DNA of 36,503 bases from Chloroflexota bacterium. GTDB lineage: Bacteria; Chloroflexota; Dormibacteria; CF-121. Within the stretch, counting starts at the first letter, position 1. Each line of letters begins with the position of its first letter. Below the pieces are notes generated by a model. That model was not told the origin of the DNA, searched no databases, and saw nothing but the letters and a program-made list of their open reading frames with translations. A program made the translations under genes and the position numbers. The stretch covers positions 1-36,503 of the forward strand of contig VBID01000134.1 of the NCBI GenBank assembly GCA_005880615.1. Direction: 5' to 3'. This document shows, piece after piece, positions 3,650-10,522 of this stretch.

Positions 3650-4369
3650 ATGCTCAGAGCTCTTCCGGTGTTGGGGCTCTCGCTGGTATTGGCGGCCTGC
3701 GCCAGCCTGGCGGCTGCCCCCGATACCCACCCCAGCAGCACGGCTTCAGCCACGCCATCGGCCTCGCCGTTGCCGGCGACCGTCTGGGTCAACGTGCCAT
3801 TGGGGGCCAACCTCCGGGGCGCGCCCGACTCGAACGCCGCCCGGCTGGAGACGCTGGCGCAGGGCGCCAGGGCCGACGTCGTCGGCAAGCGAGATATGGC
3901 CGATGGGTCCAGCTGGTACCAGGTCAAGGCCGCGGACGGGCAGCAGGGCTGGGTGAGCGCCGCGAATGTGGTGACGTCGGCCATCTTCCGGGCGTCGAGC
4001 ACCACCGATGGCTGGACCCTGATGCTGCCGGCGACCTTCAGCACTCGGACCGTCGCCAGTCCCAGCCCGGGCGCCTTCACGGCCGGGCCCGCCGGTGATA
4101 GCGCCCCGCCCTTTGTCAAAGTCCAGGTGGCGGCCAGCCTGGCGGCGCTGCCGCCGGCCACGCCGACTGGCTCCACGTTCGACCACAGCCGCCTGACCGA
4201 AGTCTGGAATTACACAGTCCAGGAAAAGATCTATCGCACGCCCGAGGGTCTGTTCCTGGCGGTGGTACGCGTCCCGGCGCCGAACCGCGCCTACCAGTTC
4301 CTGTTCTGGACCGCGGACAACGACGCCCCCATCGTGACTCAGATCCTGGCCAGCATCGCCCTGAGTTGA
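3650..4369 (+). CDS. Lipoprotein with bacterial SH3 domain
   Basis: A 239-residue secreted protein. The signal peptide ends in a lipobox (VLAAC, Cys17), predicting lipid anchoring outside the membrane. A Ser/Thr/Pro/Ala-rich linker (20-45) leads to an SH3b domain (about 45-110: VWVNVPLGANLRGAP, WYQVKA, GWVSAANVV). The C-terminal 120 residues (DGWTLMLP to FLFWTADNDAPIVTQILASI) are shared with the next gene and belong to no family I can name. SH3b domains often bind cell-wall peptides, so a wall-associated role is inferred. The stop overlaps the next gene's ATG by one base (TGATG), indicating translational coupling. Confidence 0.82.
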   Translation: MLRALPVLGLSLVLAACASLAAAPDTHPSSTASATPSASPLPATVWVNVPLGANLRGAPDSNAARLETLAQGARADVVGKRDMADGSSWYQVKAADGQQGWVSAANVVTSAIFRASSTTDGWTLMLPATFSTRTVASPSPGAFTAGPAGDSAPPFVKVQVAASLAALPPATPTGSTFDHSRLTEVWNYTVQEKIYRTPEGLFLAVVRVPAPNRAYQFLFWTADNDAPIVTQILASIALS

Positions 4370-5286
4370 TGCGCGTCAGGCTGCTCGTCCGCCAGATCAT
4401 GGCCATGCCGGCCCTGCGCCAGACCGTGCCGGCGGTACTGATCGGCGGGCTGACCGGCTTCGCCCTGATCGGGCCGGTCACCCATCTTTTCCCAGGCTGG
4501 GCGGCCACCCCCGAGCCAGTCGCCGGCGCCACCACCCAACCGACTCCCAGCGTAGCCGCCTCCGCCACCCCGGCCAGCTGCTACGTGCACGACGGTCCAG
4601 CCGCGACGTTACCCCAGCCGCTCCCAGCGGCCCCGCCGCCGACCGCGATCTGGGTCAATGCGCCGCTGGGCGTCAACGTGCGCGCGGCTCCAGATGTGAA
4701 CAGCCAGCGCCTGACGGGCCTCGCCCAGGGCACCCGCGCTACCGTGCTTGGCCAGCGCATCGGGGCGGACGGCGCCCTCTGGTACGACGTGCAGCCGCCC
4801 GGCCAACCCGCGGGCTGGGTCAACGGCCGCTATGTGGTGACCACCCAGATCCACACCGCGACCACTGACGAGGGCTGGAGTGTCATGCTCCCCGACGGCT
4901 ACACCCTGACGCGCACCGGGCCTGGTGCCGGTGAAGTGCGGAACACCCAGGTCTCGACCGTGCCATTCCTCGAGATCACGGTCTCCACCCCAAGCAGCCA
5001 GGATCCCGCCCCGGTCCCGGTCGAGCTTCGCCACGACGTCCCGTGGGTGCAGGACCACGTGTCCACGGTCTCGGTCTGGGACTACTCACCCGCGATGAGC
5101 GTGTCGCGGGCCGCCATCGATACGTGTCTGGTGCCCAACGCCGCGGCTCGCGCCGACGGCGGTTGGGCCTGGGTCTCTTCGCTCACGGTGCTGACGCCGA
5201 CCCGCCGGTGTTCCTTCCTGTTCATCAGCGACCGTCAGGTCGATCCAGTGATCACGCAGGTGCTGGCCAGCATCTACGTCGGCTAA
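4369..5286 (+). CDS. Membrane-anchored SH3-domain protein, paralogue of the preceding lipoprotein
   Basis: A 305-residue protein with a single N-terminal membrane segment (about 20-40, AVLIGGLTGFALIGPVTHLF) in place of a lipobox, then a Pro/Ala/Thr-rich linker. An SH3b domain follows (about 88-155: IWVNAPLGVNVRAAPD, WYDVQPPGQPAGWVNG). Its C-terminal domain matches the neighbour's (DEGWSVMLPDGYTL, CSFLFISDRQVDPVITQVLASIYVG). ATG 4369 is chosen over TTG 4366 because it overlaps the previous stop as TGATG. Two Cys residues in the C-terminal domain (TCLVPN, RRCSF) could form a disulfide. The function is unknown; the pair looks like a tandem duplication diverged in membrane anchoring. Confidence 0.8.
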   Translation: MRVRLLVRQIMAMPALRQTVPAVLIGGLTGFALIGPVTHLFPGWAATPEPVAGATTQPTPSVAASATPASCYVHDGPAATLPQPLPAAPPPTAIWVNAPLGVNVRAAPDVNSQRLTGLAQGTRATVLGQRIGADGALWYDVQPPGQPAGWVNGRYVVTTQIHTATTDEGWSVMLPDGYTLTRTGPGAGEVRNTQVSTVPFLEITVSTPSSQDPAPVPVELRHDVPWVQDHVSTVSVWDYSPAMSVSRAAIDTCLVPNAAARADGGWAWVSSLTVLTPTRRCSFLFISDRQVDPVITQVLASIYVG

Positions 5287-5466: not shown

Positions 5467-6246
5467 CTACGCTGGCTTGCGCGCTCGAATCGGATAGCCG
5501 TATGTCCCAAATTGCCGAGCCTTATCCTCTCCACTGGCACCAGCGAAGGAGTCGATGCGAGGACCAAGCTCGACGTCAACGAGCCCAGCGCCTCGGATCA
5601 CCGTATCCCATCCTGCACACGGCAGGGCACCGGCAATTCAACCGGTCCAGAGGTCGATGTCACGAAGAGCGCTCTCCGGAATGGGCTTCTCGATACACAT
5701 ATCGGCGATCATCATCCGTCCGCCTGGCCGCAGGATACGGGCTACCTCGCGACAGACACCGAGTTTGTCCGGACAGAGGTTGAACACGCCATTGCTGATC
5801 ACCACGTCGGCCCAGCCGTCATCCACAGGGGACCTTTCGATATATCCTTCGCGAAATTCGACATTGTCAAAGCCAAACTTCCTGGCCAGGTGGCGACTGC
5901 GTTCGAGCATCTGGGGCGTCATGTCCACCCCGATCACCCGACCCTCTTTGCCAACACAGAGCGCCGCGAAGAAAGAATCCATTCCACCGCCCGAACCCAG
6001 GTCCACCACTCGCTCCCCTGGCCCCGGCGTCTCCCAATGAAAGGGGTTGGCCATGCCGGCGAACGCTTCACAGGCTTCGTCAGCGAGCTGGTCGAGGGTC
6101 GCCTGGTCGTAACCGAGCCGGATCGCGTGCTGACGGCCGGTATGGAAGTGGTAGTTGCCCGCGGGTTTCTCCGCCACATCACGGTACTTCTTCTGAACCT
6201 CGTTGCGAAGTTCCTGCACATCGACGAGATCAAGGATGTCTGTCAT
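5467..6246 (-). CDS. ArsM-like SAM methyltransferase, probable selenoprotein (in-frame TGA at 5640-5638)
   Basis: The first 202 codons encode a class I methyltransferase of the ArsM/UbiE type: VVDLGSGGGMDSFFAA (80-95) binds SAM, GVDMTPQML (106-114) is motif II, ISNGVFNLCPDK and LRPGGRMMIADM follow. The frame then meets TGA directly after DIDLWTG. Reading on in frame gives IAGALPCAGW, VIRGAGLVDVELGP, SFAGASGEDKAR and YGYPIRARKPA, ending at TAG 5469-5467 after 56 codons. This matches the expected C-terminus of the family, where the position after WTG is normally Cys (GCIAGA). A hairpin 12-26 bases past the TGA fits a bacterial SECIS, so TGA is read as Sec203 (259 residues in all). ArsM enzymes use this Cys with one in SNC to hold As(III); here SNC is SNG, so the substrate may not be arsenite. 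It is the last gene of the operon, with an ATGA overlap to the MFS gene. Alternative: a nonsense mutation truncating it at 202 residues. Confidence 0.75.
5612..5626 (-). promoter_or_regulatory. Candidate bacterial SECIS hairpin downstream of the in-frame TGA
   Basis: On the minus strand the bases 12-26 after the TGA read CCTGC-CGTGT-GCAGG: a perfect 5-bp stem with a five-base loop containing GU. In E. coli fdhF the SelB-binding apical loop with its GU lies about 18-23 bases after the UGA; here the GU dinucleotides are at +18/19 and +20/21. ACCG just before the TGA can pair with CGGT at +35 to +38, giving a possible lower stem. The element lies inside coding sequence, as bacterial SECIS elements do. 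It was found by eye; no folding energy was computed. Confidence 0.55.
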
Positions 6247-7562
6247 GCCTCACCCTCCTCCCTCTCATTAGTTCTCCGAAGCGACCGCATGTGGCGGCGG
6301 GCACCAACTCCCGGAGTGGGATGCGTCTCGTACATGCGGACTCCGACGACGGCTGCGCCCAGCGCCGTGATGCCGGCCACCACCCAGATCGCTGCGACCA
6401 ACCCGAAGAGATCGGCGACTACGCCGGACAGGAGGGCGCCCACCACGAATCCAGCGTCGCGCCACAACCGATAGACGCCGACCGCCGATGCTCGCCATGC
6501 CGGATGCGCGACGTCGCCGACTGCCGCCAGCAGCGTGGGATATGCCATCGCGGTCCCAGCGCCGAGGCCGATCGCACCGATGGCCCAGATGGCAAAGCCC
6601 CTTCCGCTGGCGGTCACGGCCAGGGCGGCTGCCTGGACGGCCAGCCCTCCAGCGATCAGCCGCTTGCGGCCGATTCGATCAGACAGCGCGCCCGTGGCCA
6701 GTTGGCCGACGCCCCAGACGAACGGGTAGAGCGCGACCAGCGCCCCGATCGCGGAAAGGGAGAGGCCATGCCGAGCGAAAAGGAGCGGGAACAGTCCCCA
6801 CGCCATCCCGTCGTTGAGGTTATTCGTCAATCCGGCCGCGCAACTGGCGGACAGTGCTCGCTCACTGAAGCTCGTTTCGACGAAGACGTGGCGCATTGTG
6901 ACCGCCGGCTGCAGGTTCCTGCCGTCGTTCGCACGGCCTTCCAAGCGGGCGTGCCCACGCGTTTCGCGCACCAAGAAAGCTGAGAGACCCAATCCGAGGC
7001 CCGCGCAGGCTACCCCGAAGAAGAAGGGTTGCGGGCGAAGTCCGGCATGTTGCGCGACGACCCCGGTGAGGTAGGCGGTCGCGGCCAGCGCCCCATAGCC
7101 GGCAGCTTCGTTGATCCCCATCGCCAGGCCGCGGCGAACCGGACCAACCAGATCGATCTTCATGTTGACCGTCATCGACCACGCGAGTCCCTGATTGATC
7201 CCGAGAAGGACGTTGGCCAGGATCACCCAACCCCAGCGAGGAGCCCAGATCAGCAGCAGCGGTACGGGCACGCCTGCCAGCCAACCCGCAACCAGCACCG
7301 GCTTTCGGCCGAAGCGGTCCGAGAGGGTCCCGGCGATGAAGTTCGTGATCGCCTTCGTCACGCCGAAGGCCACGATGAAGGTCAGCGCCGCCGTGACGGC
7401 GTTGAGCCCGAAGACGCGCGTGGCGAGCAGCGGGAGGACGGTCCGCTCCTGCCCGAGCATGCCGCCGACGAGCGCGTTGACGCCTACAAGAAGGCTGAAT
7501 TGGGCCAGGTTCGCCCGCAGTCCAAGCGTCACCGCTCGCATCCGGGGAGCGGCAGCCGTCAT
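6243..7562 (-). CDS. MFS transporter of the ArsR-rhodanese operon
   Basis: A 439-residue protein with about 12 hydrophobic segments. The major facilitator loop signature appears in both halves (GTLSDRFGRKPVLVAG near 80-95 and GALSDRIGRKRLIAGG near 285-300), along with LLGINQGLAWSM. ATG 7562 is chosen because it overlaps the upstream stop as ATGA, and because the sequence from there (MTAAAPRMRAVTLGLRANL) leads straight into TM1. Its stop overlaps the next gene in the same way. Coupling to an ArsR repressor, sulfur-transfer proteins and two methyltransferases suggests export of a toxic or methylated thiophilic compound. The substrate cannot be read from the sequence. Confidence 0.85.
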   Translation of the reverse strand: MTAAAPRMRAVTLGLRANLAQFSLLVGVNALVGGMLGQERTVLPLLATRVFGLNAVTAALTFIVAFGVTKAITNFIAGTLSDRFGRKPVLVAGWLAGVPVPLLLIWAPRWGWVILANVLLGINQGLAWSMTVNMKIDLVGPVRRGLAMGINEAAGYGALAATAYLTGVVAQHAGLRPQPFFFGVACAGLGLGLSAFLVRETRGHARLEGRANDGRNLQPAVTMRHVFVETSFSERALSASCAAGLTNNLNDGMAWGLFPLLFARHGLSLSAIGALVALYPFVWGVGQLATGALSDRIGRKRLIAGGLAVQAAALAVTASGRGFAIWAIGAIGLGAGTAMAYPTLLAAVGDVAHPAWRASAVGVYRLWRDAGFVVGALLSGVVADLFGLVAAIWVVAGITALGAAVVGVRMYETHPTPGVGARRHMRSLRRTNEREEGEA

Positions 7563-8941
7563 CCGATGGCCATCGGTTGACCGGCCTCTCGCCACGCCTC
7601 GAAACCGCCGTCCATGACCGCCAGATTCTGTCGGCCCTGCCCCTCGAGCAGGCTGGCGGCGGTCATCGCTCGCCCGCCGTGACTGCAGTAGATGGTCACG
7701 GGCCCGGGCGGAATGGCGCCGGCTGAGATCACCACGCTGCCAAGTTCCACGTGGCGGGCCGAAGGAATGTGACCGCCCGCCCACTCGCTCGCCTGACGGA
7801 CATCGAGAGGCGCACCTTGCAAGTCCTCGTTGACCTGCCGAAGGGCGATCACCGACTCCGGCAAGGCCTCCGCGCGCCAGGCGTCCATGCCGCCCTCCAA
7901 TTCGCCGACCAGGTTCTCGTACCCGATCTTCAAGCACTGCTCGACCAGATCCCGCTGGTCCTGGTCGGGCGCGCGCAGGAAGACGAGGGGCCGCTCCGCT
8001 GGCACGATCCAGCCCACCCAGGACGCGAAGGCGGGACGGAGCGCGATGGAGAGCGCGCCGGGGATGTGGCCGCGGGCAAAATCCGCAAAAGGCCGGACGT
8101 CCACCAAGATCGCGCCCGCCGCTCGGTGACGCCGAAGCTCGTCGACCGAGAGCGGCGCGAGCGCCGGCGGCGTCACCCCAAATAGACGCGCACCTCGCTG
8201 GTTCACGATGCGCAGCCGGAGGAAGTAGGGCGGGTACGTCCCGAGACCTTCCAGGAAGGTCCGGACGAAGGCATCCTCGCTGGCCGCACTAAAGAGCGGA
8301 TTCTCGTTGCGCTCTCTGCCTAATGACGTCGTCCGCTGCCCGTCGGCTCCCGCCGAACAGAACGAACCGGCGCCATGGGTCGGGTAAACCGGCAGGTCGT
8401 TAGGAAGGTCGCTGAGACGCTGGTGGGCAGACCGATAGAGGGCGTGCGCTAGCGGTTCGGTCTGTTCCGGCCCGATCAGGTCGGGGCGGGCGGCACCGCC
8501 GGGGAGGACCGCTCCCCCACTGAACAGCAGCAGCGGCTTAGGACCGTCAAGCAGGAGATAGCTGAAGTGCTCCGGCGTATGCCCGGGCGTGGCCAGAGCT
8601 CGTAGTGTCAAGCCGCCAAGGTCGACCTCCTCGCCATCGTCGAGTCCGCGGTGCGCGGCAGCGAGATGCGAGGCGCGCGGGGCGAGGATGTCGGCCCCGA
8701 AGGCGGCCAGCTCACGACTGCCTGAGATGAAATCAGCGTGGAGGTGGGTCTCTGCCGCGAACGCGATCCGGAGGTTGAGCCGTTGTCCGAGCTCGAGATA
8801 GGGCGTCGGATCCCGCGGCGGGTCGACCACCAGCGCCCGACCATCGCCCAGCGGCACCAGGTAGGAGGAGTTTCCGAGCCCCTCGTCGATGAAGGGGACG
8901 AGCTCCGCGCGGTGGGCGGCCTGGACGGCAAGCCCACTCAT
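7559..8941 (-). CDS. Metallo-beta-lactamase-fold protein fused to two rhodanese domains
   Basis: A 460-residue cytoplasmic protein resembling persulfide dioxygenase-rhodanese (CstB-like) enzymes of sulfide and persulfide detoxification. The MBL part (about 1-235) has THLHADF at 65-71, PGHTPEH at 119-125 and PTHGAG at 187-192. The usual HxHxDH ends in Phe here, and the usual metal-ligand Asp of the GD motif is Gly (FSGGAV, 140-145). Rhodanese 1 (about 265-360) has no active-site Cys (FLRAPDQDQ); rhodanese 2 (about 370-455) has YCSHGGRA with the catalytic Cys. Dioxygenase activity is therefore doubtful, while sulfur transfer by domain 2 is plausible. ATG 8941 overlaps the upstream stop, and the stop overlaps the MFS start. 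Confidence 0.85.
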   Translation of the reverse strand: MSGLAVQAAHRAELVPFIDEGLGNSSYLVPLGDGRALVVDPPRDPTPYLELGQRLNLRIAFAAETHLHADFISGSRELAAFGADILAPRASHLAAAHRGLDDGEEVDLGGLTLRALATPGHTPEHFSYLLLDGPKPLLLFSGGAVLPGGAARPDLIGPEQTEPLAHALYRSAHQRLSDLPNDLPVYPTHGAGSFCSAGADGQRTTSLGRERNENPLFSAASEDAFVRTFLEGLGTYPPYFLRLRIVNQRGARLFGVTPPALAPLSVDELRRHRAAGAILVDVRPFADFARGHIPGALSIALRPAFASWVGWIVPAERPLVFLRAPDQDQRDLVEQCLKIGYENLVGELEGGMDAWRAEALPESVIALRQVNEDLQGAPLDVRQASEWAGGHIPSARHVELGSVVISAGAIPPGPVTIYCSHGGRAMTAASLLEGQGRQNLAVMDGGFEAWREAGQPMAIG

Positions 8942-9729
8942 CGGGCCGCCGGCTTGACGCCCCTTACCAGGATGTACCCGAGGTATGGGACCGCCCTGCT
9001 GATGCGCGGCATCAACCAGGCCATCTTGCGCACGTAGGCCGCGTGCGACAGACCACGCACCATGCAGGCGAAGGCATTGACCAGTCCCTCATCCTGGAGG
9101 AAGCCGCGAGGCGTCATCATCTCAAAGGGTCCCGATCGCACCTCGATGGCGGAAAGACCAGCGTCCTGGTAGATCCTCACCCAGCCGTCGAGCTGGTCAA
9201 GCTGCATGCCCGGACACACCTGTCCGAGGAAAATCTCGCGGGCCTCGTCGGTGGGCGGCTGGCGCCAGAAAAACTCGGTGGCCAGCACCATCCCGCCCGG
9301 CCGGCATACCCGGACCAATTCTCTGGCGGCGCGCTGGCGGTCGACGAACATCGTGACCGCTTCGGCGATCACCCGGTCGAACCGACCGTCCGGGAATCGC
9401 AGCCCGAGGATGTCTCCTTGCTCGACCTCGATGTCGCGCTCAAGGCCGGCGCGTCGAACATTGCTCCGGGCTCGCTCGAGCATGAGCGGCGAGATATCGA
9501 CCGCCGTGACCGCGACCCTGAACCGACGCGCCATCTGAATGGCGGTAGTTGCGACTCCGCAGCCGACATCGAGCGCCTTCTGCCCAGCCTGCAAGGCAGC
9601 CAGGCTGAAGAGCTCCTCCGTCGAGCGACGGCCGCCCGGATGGATCACGCGCTTGCCGATGACCGCCAAGAACGTGTACGGGTCCAACGACTTGACGTCG
9701 AGTTTTGGACGGGTCAGCGTCGCTGCCAT
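8938..9729 (-). CDS. Class I SAM-dependent methyltransferase
   Basis: A 263-residue methyltransferase with ALDVGCGVATTAIQMA as SAM motif I, VTAVDISPLMLERAR as motif II, IAEAVTMFVD, and LVRVCRPGGMVLATEFFW. The N-terminal block YTFLAVIGKRVIHPGGRRSTEEL precedes the fold. The substrate is unknown; the operon suggests a small thiol, metalloid or sulfur compound, which is inference only. ATG 9729 has a good ribosome-binding site (GGGAGGT, nine bases upstream) and leaves a 16-base gap to the arsR-rhodanese gene. The frame stays open much further upstream, but that part lies within the previous gene and is not coding. The stop overlaps the MBL gene as ATGA. Confidence 0.85.
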   Translation of the reverse strand: MAATLTRPKLDVKSLDPYTFLAVIGKRVIHPGGRRSTEELFSLAALQAGQKALDVGCGVATTAIQMARRFRVAVTAVDISPLMLERARSNVRRAGLERDIEVEQGDILGLRFPDGRFDRVIAEAVTMFVDRQRAARELVRVCRPGGMVLATEFFWRQPPTDEAREIFLGQVCPGMQLDQLDGWVRIYQDAGLSAIEVRSGPFEMMTPRGFLQDEGLVNAFACMVRGLSHAAYVRKMAWLMPRISRAVPYLGYILVRGVKPAAR

Positions 9730-9745
9730 GTGATTGACCTCCCTC

Positions 9746-10522
9746 TCAGCTGCCGACCACTGGAAGGCCTGCCGCCTTCCACTCCGGCAACCCGTCTTCA
9801 AGCCGTCTGGCACGAAAGCCGGCCTGTTGCAGCACACGGACCGCCTTATGAGCGAACGCACAGTACGGGCCGCGGCAGTACGCCACGGCCTCTTTGTCGC
9901 GGGGCAGTTCGCGGAGTCTTCGGCGGAGCTCCGCCAGCGGGATCGAGATCGCGGGCGGCAGGTGGCCGGCCGCAAACTCCTCCGCGGGCCGGACGTCGAG
10001 CACGATCAGGTCTTCACCCCGCTTCAGCCGGCGGAGCAGCTCGGCTCGAGTGACAGGTTCAAGACTGTCCCGCGCGCCGAGGTAGGCATCAGCCAGCCGG
10101 CCTACCTCCGCACGGTGCTGAGCAGCCACGCTGCGCAGGTTGCGCCAGAGGTCGAACACCTCGGGGTCCCGCAGACCGTAATAGATCCGGTTGCCATCCC
10201 GTCGGCGGCGGACCAGTCCGACCTCCCGGAGTACCTGTAAGTGCTGACTGGTGTTGGCGACCGAAAGCCTCGTCTCGGATGCCAGCCGCTCAACGGTGCG
10301 TTCGCCATTGGCGAGCACATCGACGATCTCCAGTCGCCTGCCGTTTGCCAGCGCCTGCGCCAGACGGGCAAACTCATCGAAGAGGGCAGTCTTGGGTTGG
10401 TGTCCGTCGCGGTCCTGGGACCGCCCCTCCCCATGCCGCGTGGTCACTGCCCTTCGCGCCAGCGCTGGAGGCAGGCTGGGAGCCGGCGACCCCGTCCCAG
10501 CCTGCCGCGGTCTCGCGTTCAC
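9746..10522 (-). CDS. ArsR-family repressor fused to a rhodanese domain
   Basis: A 258-residue protein. An Arg/Gly-rich N-terminus (1-45) leads to an ArsR winged helix-turn-helix (about 48-125: LAQALANGRRLEIVDVL, SVANTSQHLQVLREVGLV, GNRIYYGL). A rhodanese domain (about 155-255) has active site YCRGPYCAFAHKAV with Cys216 and Cys221. These are the only two cysteines, so the classical As(III) site in the recognition helix is absent and any thiol sensing must use the rhodanese domain. The start is GTG 10522, overlapping the upstream TAG as TAGTG; an internal GTG near residue 26 is possible. It is the likely autorepressor of the operon through the dyad near 11010. Confidence 0.86.
   Translation of the reverse strand: MNARPRQAGTGSPAPSLPPALARRAVTTRHGEGRSQDRDGHQPKTALFDEFARLAQALANGRRLEIVDVLANGERTVERLASETRLSVANTSQHLQVLREVGLVRRRRDGNRIYYGLRDPEVFDLWRNLRSVAAQHRAEVGRLADAYLGARDSLEPVTRAELLRRLKRGEDLIVLDVRPAEEFAAGHLPPAISIPLAELRRRLRELPRDKEAVAYCRGPYCAFAHKAVRVLQQAGFRARRLEDGLPEWKAAGLPVVGS

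Follow-up and report, generated by a model that had tools for sequence, protein, structure and literature searches.

What does a methyltransferase gene encode when its reading frame meets a TGA codon and then stays open, and what kind of enzyme would the full product be? The question is raised by a minus-strand locus in the window, that is, the whole stretch of 36,503 nucleotides of a Chloroflexota bacterium analysed here (Table 1). Re-reading of the frame from the start ATG at 6246 to the stop TAG at 5469-5467 confirmed that codon 203 is TGA (5640-5638) and that 56 sense codons (IAGALPCAGW ... YGYPIRARKPA) lie between it and the TAG. The motifs, coordinates and codon count given in a preliminary description of this DNA were all right, as was its expectation that automatic annotation would end at 202 residues, the plain ORF ending at the TGA being 202 aa long (5638-6246). 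In many genomes, a gene caller treating TGA as a stop would lose the last 57 residues of this enzyme, Sec included. We consider that the gene almost certainly encodes a selenoprotein; the codon, a hairpin and the decoding machinery are seen in the sequence, and from them we infer the insertion of Sec itself. The explanation that best accounts for the locus as a whole, and which is very likely in our judgement, is that UGA-203 is decoded as Sec in an ArsM-type enzyme whose selenolate would act on a soft atom, within an operon concerned with sulfur or metalloids.

Table 1. Features of the methyltransferase operon and of the predicted Sec codon in the window.
Feature	Position	Strand	Remarks
ArsM-like SAM methyltransferase gene, predicted to contain Sec	5467..6246	-	259 residues with Sec203
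In-frame TGA, codon 203, probably read as selenocysteine	5638..5640	-	
SECIS-like hairpin CCTGC-CGTGT-GCAGG	5612..5626	-	loop starts 16 nt after UGA; G at loop position 2
MFS transporter gene	6243..7562	-	TGA stop overlaps the methyltransferase ATG (ATGA); start picked at the ATG overlapping the preceding stop
Metallo-beta-lactamase (MBL) fold and rhodanese domains	7559..8941	-	ATGA overlaps on both sides
Second SAM methyltransferase	8938..9729	-	263 aa, counted from the chosen ATG; distantly DVU_1556 family-like (75.8 bits, cut-off 155)
ArsR/SmtB regulator with C-terminal rhodanese domain	9746..10522	-	lies 16 nt upstream of the next gene

The Pfam and NCBIfam profiles place the protein among ArsM-type methyltransferases, and the best NCBIfam match is the arsenite methyltransferase NF008823 with 213.4 bits, which is below the cut-off of 263 bits. 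The AlphaFold model, with Cys standing for Sec, has a mean pLDDT of 96.1, and the closest folds in the PDB are the ArsM structures 4fr0 (best), 5evj and 6cx6. The canonical enzymes share the fold and the SAM site with the modelled protein, but their chains have 377-387 residues against 259, and in the alignment Sec203 falls on Cys224, whereas Gly153 and Met65 stand for Cys174 and Cys72; thus Sec is found at the position of residue 224 and no Cys at those of 72 and 174. We take Cys174 of ArsM to be an arsenic binding residue, and both Cys72 and Cys174 presumably have a role in arsenic binding. Residues 72 and 224 have been mutated, according to the titles of PDB entries.

Proteins of this kind are already on record. 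The selenoprotein lists of two reviews (PMC9312934, PMC13188914) contain an 'arsenite methyltransferase' with one Sec in a UxxG motif, exemplified by WP_011987699.1, for which the latter review cites Fomenko et al. 2007, and both catalogue fused double selenoproteins as well. The window protein resembles the listed one in having UIAG at the Sec, an ArsM-type methyltransferase and a single domain, a likeness drawn from the description in these lists. Moreover, the N-terminal methyltransferase part with UxxG is shared with three NCBIfam families, NF041537 (ArsM/AhpD), NF041536 (ArsM/DUF2284) and NF047649 (methyltransferase/UXPK-star): residues 3-227 of the window protein align to positions 3-227 of the first and residues 3-229 to positions 3-229 of the second. 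The scores of 210, 190 and 179 bits lie below the respective cut-offs of 510, 575 and 460, and all three families have a second, fused Sec domain, unlike the window protein, which ends at residue 259. When 301 genomes of the phylum were searched with NF041537, the 12 best matches, as fetched, were all of the Gly153 type. On its sequence, the window protein is thus a single-domain addition to an already catalogued kind of UxxG selenoprotein. In the literature searched, no title or abstract was on the loss of the Cys72 and Cys174 equivalents.

The positions of the cysteines were followed in an alignment of 69 rows including the window protein, 39 with Gly153 and 30 with Cys153. None of the 39 Gly153 rows has Cys at position 65, and position 203 is Sec in 28 of them and Cys in 11; the 30 canonical rows have Cys at 153 and at 203 throughout (30/30 each) and at 65 in 27/30, the Leu in the other three being probably an alignment shift. 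In a tree for which four canonical rows served as outgroup, all 39 Gly153 rows fall into one group with full support (100/100), within which 5 Sec/Cys changes are needed, at least 4 of them by well supported branches, when the Cys outgroup is included. A quick tree built on 71 rows is in accord with this, giving a clade of 33 rows (26 Sec, 7 Cys) at a support of 99. HFHTG occurs near the N-terminus in 33/39 clade members, and position 158 is Cys in 23/39. What is added here, as far as aligned sequences can tell, is that a single supported clade, which lacks the Cys72 and Cys174 equivalents, contained all the Sec forms found; in the sample examined, every protein with Sec is without the other two cysteines. 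The preliminary description had called the enzyme ArsM-like and had placed the Sec at the Cys that holds the metalloid or thiol. The fold and the coincidence of Sec203 with Cys224 bear out the likeness to ArsM, but a metalloid-holding role is not established, since 39/39 clade members have residues other than Cys at the counterparts of Cys72 and Cys174. Because the tree needs 5 Sec/Cys changes and one family contains a close natural pair (L110 with Cys, L113 with Sec), it could be tested on such natural pairs what selenium buys a methyltransferase.

Gly153 is not by itself diagnostic of the clade, since the tandem paralogues P0002 and P0003 (from L058 and L050), which the 69-row set does not include, have Gly in SNG and yet group, long-branched, with the canonical rows in the quick tree. 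In L050 and L058 the Cys form is preceded in tandem by a second ArsM-like methyltransferase (L050:5050-5775, L058:4560-5300), which has SNG and WAGC. In addition, the five Actinomycetota Cys forms in the clade (L050, L051, L055, L058 and L059) have all gained another Cys at the equivalent of residue 195, 8 residues upstream of position 203; it is present in 0/28 Sec members. As a general rule, however, compensation of a Sec-to-Cys change by an added Cys 8 residues upstream was rejected, as this Cys is absent in the other 6/11 Cys forms of the clade.

The gene for the predicted selenoprotein is the last of five in the order ArsR-rhodanese, second methyltransferase, MBL-rhodanese, MFS and Sec methyltransferase, with ATGA overlaps from the second methyltransferase on. 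Two adjacent genes for bacterial SH3 domain proteins (3650-5286, plus strand) are convergent with this operon. Of 11 additional loci of the class (two of them from one genome, and some on short contigs), 7 have homologues of ArsR-rhodanese, MFS or MBL-rhodanese close to the Sec gene, in contrast to 1/17 Sec loci outside the class (L053, a Rubrobacter MAG); ArsR-rhodanese alone is near the Cys form in 1/5 Cys loci (L051). In other loci of the phylum, MBL-rhodanese (L116), DsrE (L113) and MFS (L111, L115) are among the neighbours. At L114:1123-2172 (minus strand, genome G205) the frame of the Sec form runs into a C-terminal domain of the sulfurtransferase TusA (38.3 bits, cut-off 28.6). In the other phyla, bar L053, the scan, which covered 20 proteins out of the 70 same-strand neighbours listed, gave unrelated neighbours, with SnoaL, guanylate cyclase, ABC, PadR, TPR regulators and a further methyltransferase.

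Considering these data, we propose that SelB and tRNA-Sec, aided by the hairpin just downstream, insert selenocysteine at UGA-203, and that, because the Cys72 and Cys174 equivalents are gone, Sec203 would occupy the one cysteine-type position kept clade-wide. The selenolate would hold or activate a soft atom (sulfur, selenium or metalloid) beside SAM, the operon, with its ArsR-rhodanese repressor, second methyltransferase, MBL-rhodanese and MFS transporter, would answer to sulfane sulfur or a metalloid, and the methylated product would be exported or lost. Taken jointly, these last proposals on the selenolate, the operon and the product seem to us slightly on the probable side. A narrower version, which is possible although we lean against it, is that the enzyme is a chalcogen methyltransferase, the selenol taking sulfane sulfur, a thiol or selenide for methylation and the operon serving in persulfide or sulfide handling. 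It would agree with the ArsR-rhodanese, MBL-rhodanese and MFS genes of the window, with the recurrence of this cassette in the class and in the Rubrobacter MAG, and with the MBL-rhodanese adjoining L116, the DsrE adjoining L113 and the TusA fused in L114; but the cassette stands at that single Sec locus outside the class, the other neighbours scanned (SnoaL, cyclase, TPR regulators, ABC, PadR and further methyltransferases) do not share this character, and a rhodanese-ArsR could sense metalloids too. It is doubtful whether this can be extended to the multi-phylum clade filed near the arsenite methyltransferases, which would then consist of one-selenol chalcogen methyltransferases with one Sec in place of the three-cysteine arsenic site and with several Sec/Cys switches, mostly where selA was lost.

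Another version makes the protein a true arsenite methyltransferase, in which the selenol, perhaps together with position 158 or HFHTG, would replace the missing cysteines and the substrate would be arsenic or antimony. The ArsM enzymes are indeed the closest solved folds, the top NCBIfam match bears that name, an ArsR-type regulator and an MFS gene are in the same operon, and the reviews file UxxG selenoproteins under that name in their lists. However, this match stays under its cut-off, and Cys is absent from both arsenic-site positions throughout the 39 members of the clade, whereas canonical rows keep Cys174 in 30/30 and Cys72 in 27/30; in addition, position 158 is Cys in 23/39 only, and the sole cysteines of the regulator are the CRGPYC pair (216, 221) within its rhodanese part. 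We therefore regard a true arsenite methyltransferase as rather unlikely. Similarity annotation would name an arsenic enzyme even though two of the arsenic-site cysteine positions are missing; because those two ArsM cysteines are gone and some relatives have sulfur-type neighbours, the label 'arsenite methyltransferase' is unsafe, and the function is one that we infer.

The reading of codon 203 as Sec in this ArsM-type enzyme was examined across relatives. In 61 genomes of the same class, own genome included, 12 copies at least 53% identical, each with one in-frame TGA, were among the matches listed, in 11 genomes; the other copies are 53-88% identical to the window copy, and the loci fetched for 11 of these copies all (11/11) have TGA at codon 203. 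Genome G057 has two copies of the Sec gene, on contigs C51 and C7. The wider genome collection gave 47 loci from several phyla, the nearest match being 88% identical, and in the aligned loci codon 203 is TGA, TGC or TGT with the sole exception of L086 (32% identity, CGC); overall, 28 distinct DNA sequences have TGA there, versus 45 with Cys. The Sec/Cys pair suspected beforehand is thereby supported, and the concern that re-sequencing might turn the TGA into TGC or TGT is answered by its recurrence in independent assemblies. In 10 close orthologues (45 pairs), the stretch following the TGA has a median pN/pS of 0.20 and that preceding it one of 0.18, and the differences after the TGA number 333, 218 and 1169 at codon positions 1, 2 and 3, respectively; past the TAG, the ungapped identity is 24-37% in the three relatives compared. 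By these measures, purifying selection is as strong after the TGA as before it. That the TGA is a real stop, leaving a 202-residue protein or a decaying gene, is what an ordinary gene caller would make of it, but the invariance of the codon in the class, the selection and third-position bias beyond it, the Cys at the same position in paralogues and the presence of sel genes make this very improbable. G058 was rejected as a Sec form, since the one TGA of its matched stretch is accompanied by TGC at the codon-203 site. A paralogue with 41% identity at G039:C16:75129-75653, near the Sec gene, has its own single in-frame TGA.

The bacterial SECIS model, as outlined in PMC13188914, has a loop of 3-9 nt, a stem of 4-16 bp, 16-37 nt and an MFE <= -7.5, and also asks for a G in the first two loop positions. 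The window hairpin falls within it with 5 bp, the loop CGTGT and 16 nt, but its -7.5 kcal/mol is the very limit of the model, so that alone it is borderline. Likewise, the 5-bp helix of the window copy alone has p 0.10 against synonymous recodings, and another fold is preferred by the 39 nt after the UGA. The relatives were scored for a helix with a loop of 3-7 nt starting 14-22 nt after the UGA and with G in the first two loop positions, a geometry that is near the published one but was set after the sequences had been seen; in the five Sec sequences fetched afterwards, on which it was checked, the helix has p 0.002-0.035. A helix with a minimum of 5 bp occurs in 24/28 Sec versus 7/45 Cys sequences (within the clade, 26/28 Sec versus 3/11 Cys members), and p <=0.05 against synonymous recodings is reached by 19/28 and 1/45, respectively. 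The mean helix weight of the 28 Sec sequences is 17.6, while their synonymous recodings have a mean of 10.0 and a maximum of 12.0 in 500 rounds. In the alignment of these 28, from which the structure itself was chosen, the pairs 14-30 and 15-29 show changes on both sides in 8 sequences each, and 91.5% of the pairing cells pair, versus 25-50% with the partner slid; the count of pairs with such two-sided changes (3) is no higher than in shuffles, 321/500 of which reach 3. The folding energy of the 39 nt after the UGA was discarded as a SECIS test, because it separates Sec and Cys forms poorly (mean z -0.95 in 28 Sec and 0.03 in 45 Cys sequences, +0.95 in the window). As a family, the hairpin covaries, is mostly absent from Cys forms and fits the bacterial SECIS model, while the window copy taken alone is weak.

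The search for sel genes proposed in the preliminary description was rewarded in the own genome, where selA (554 bits) and selB (351 bits) are adjacent on contig C198, a tRNA-Sec with anticodon TCA is on contig C83, and selD is found as two pieces at the ends of contigs C237 and C76, not joined. A reading of the TGA as tryptophan or another ordinary residue would also leave the frame open, but it is hardly conceivable with this tRNA-Sec present, with Cys as the alternative residue of the homologues, and with TGA ending all four upstream genes of the operon, from which it follows that TGA also serves as a stop here. Across the clade, selA is above cut-off in 31/33 Sec-form genomes versus 2/9 Cys-form genomes (Fisher p 4e-5, with related genomes treated as independent); in this count G016, G033 and G039, taken to be the genomes of L040, L042 and L041, were each entered once, and two Cys-form plasmid records were left out. 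The remaining two Sec-form genomes have a selA piece at a contig edge. One is G016, the nearest Sec-form relative, in which this piece is the only trace of selA and neither selB nor tRNA-Sec is above cut-off, perhaps because the genome is 87% complete. Although selB is above cut-off in 10/11 Sec-form genomes of the class, it was given up as a marker in favour of selA, being above cut-off in 49/61 genomes of the class, with weaker family matches in all 61. Nor did tRNA-Sec tell the two forms apart, with 6/8 Sec-form and 6/9 Cys-form genomes tested above the cut-off of 47 bits; of the six Cys-form genomes above it, three score 47-54 bits. In G071, the genome of the Cys form L050, tRNA-Sec is matched strongly (72.8 bits) and selA not at all. 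The selD of the own genome has an in-frame TGA of its own (SHGAGUACK), the first piece lying at G000:C237:7627-7887 (L107:7600-7887).
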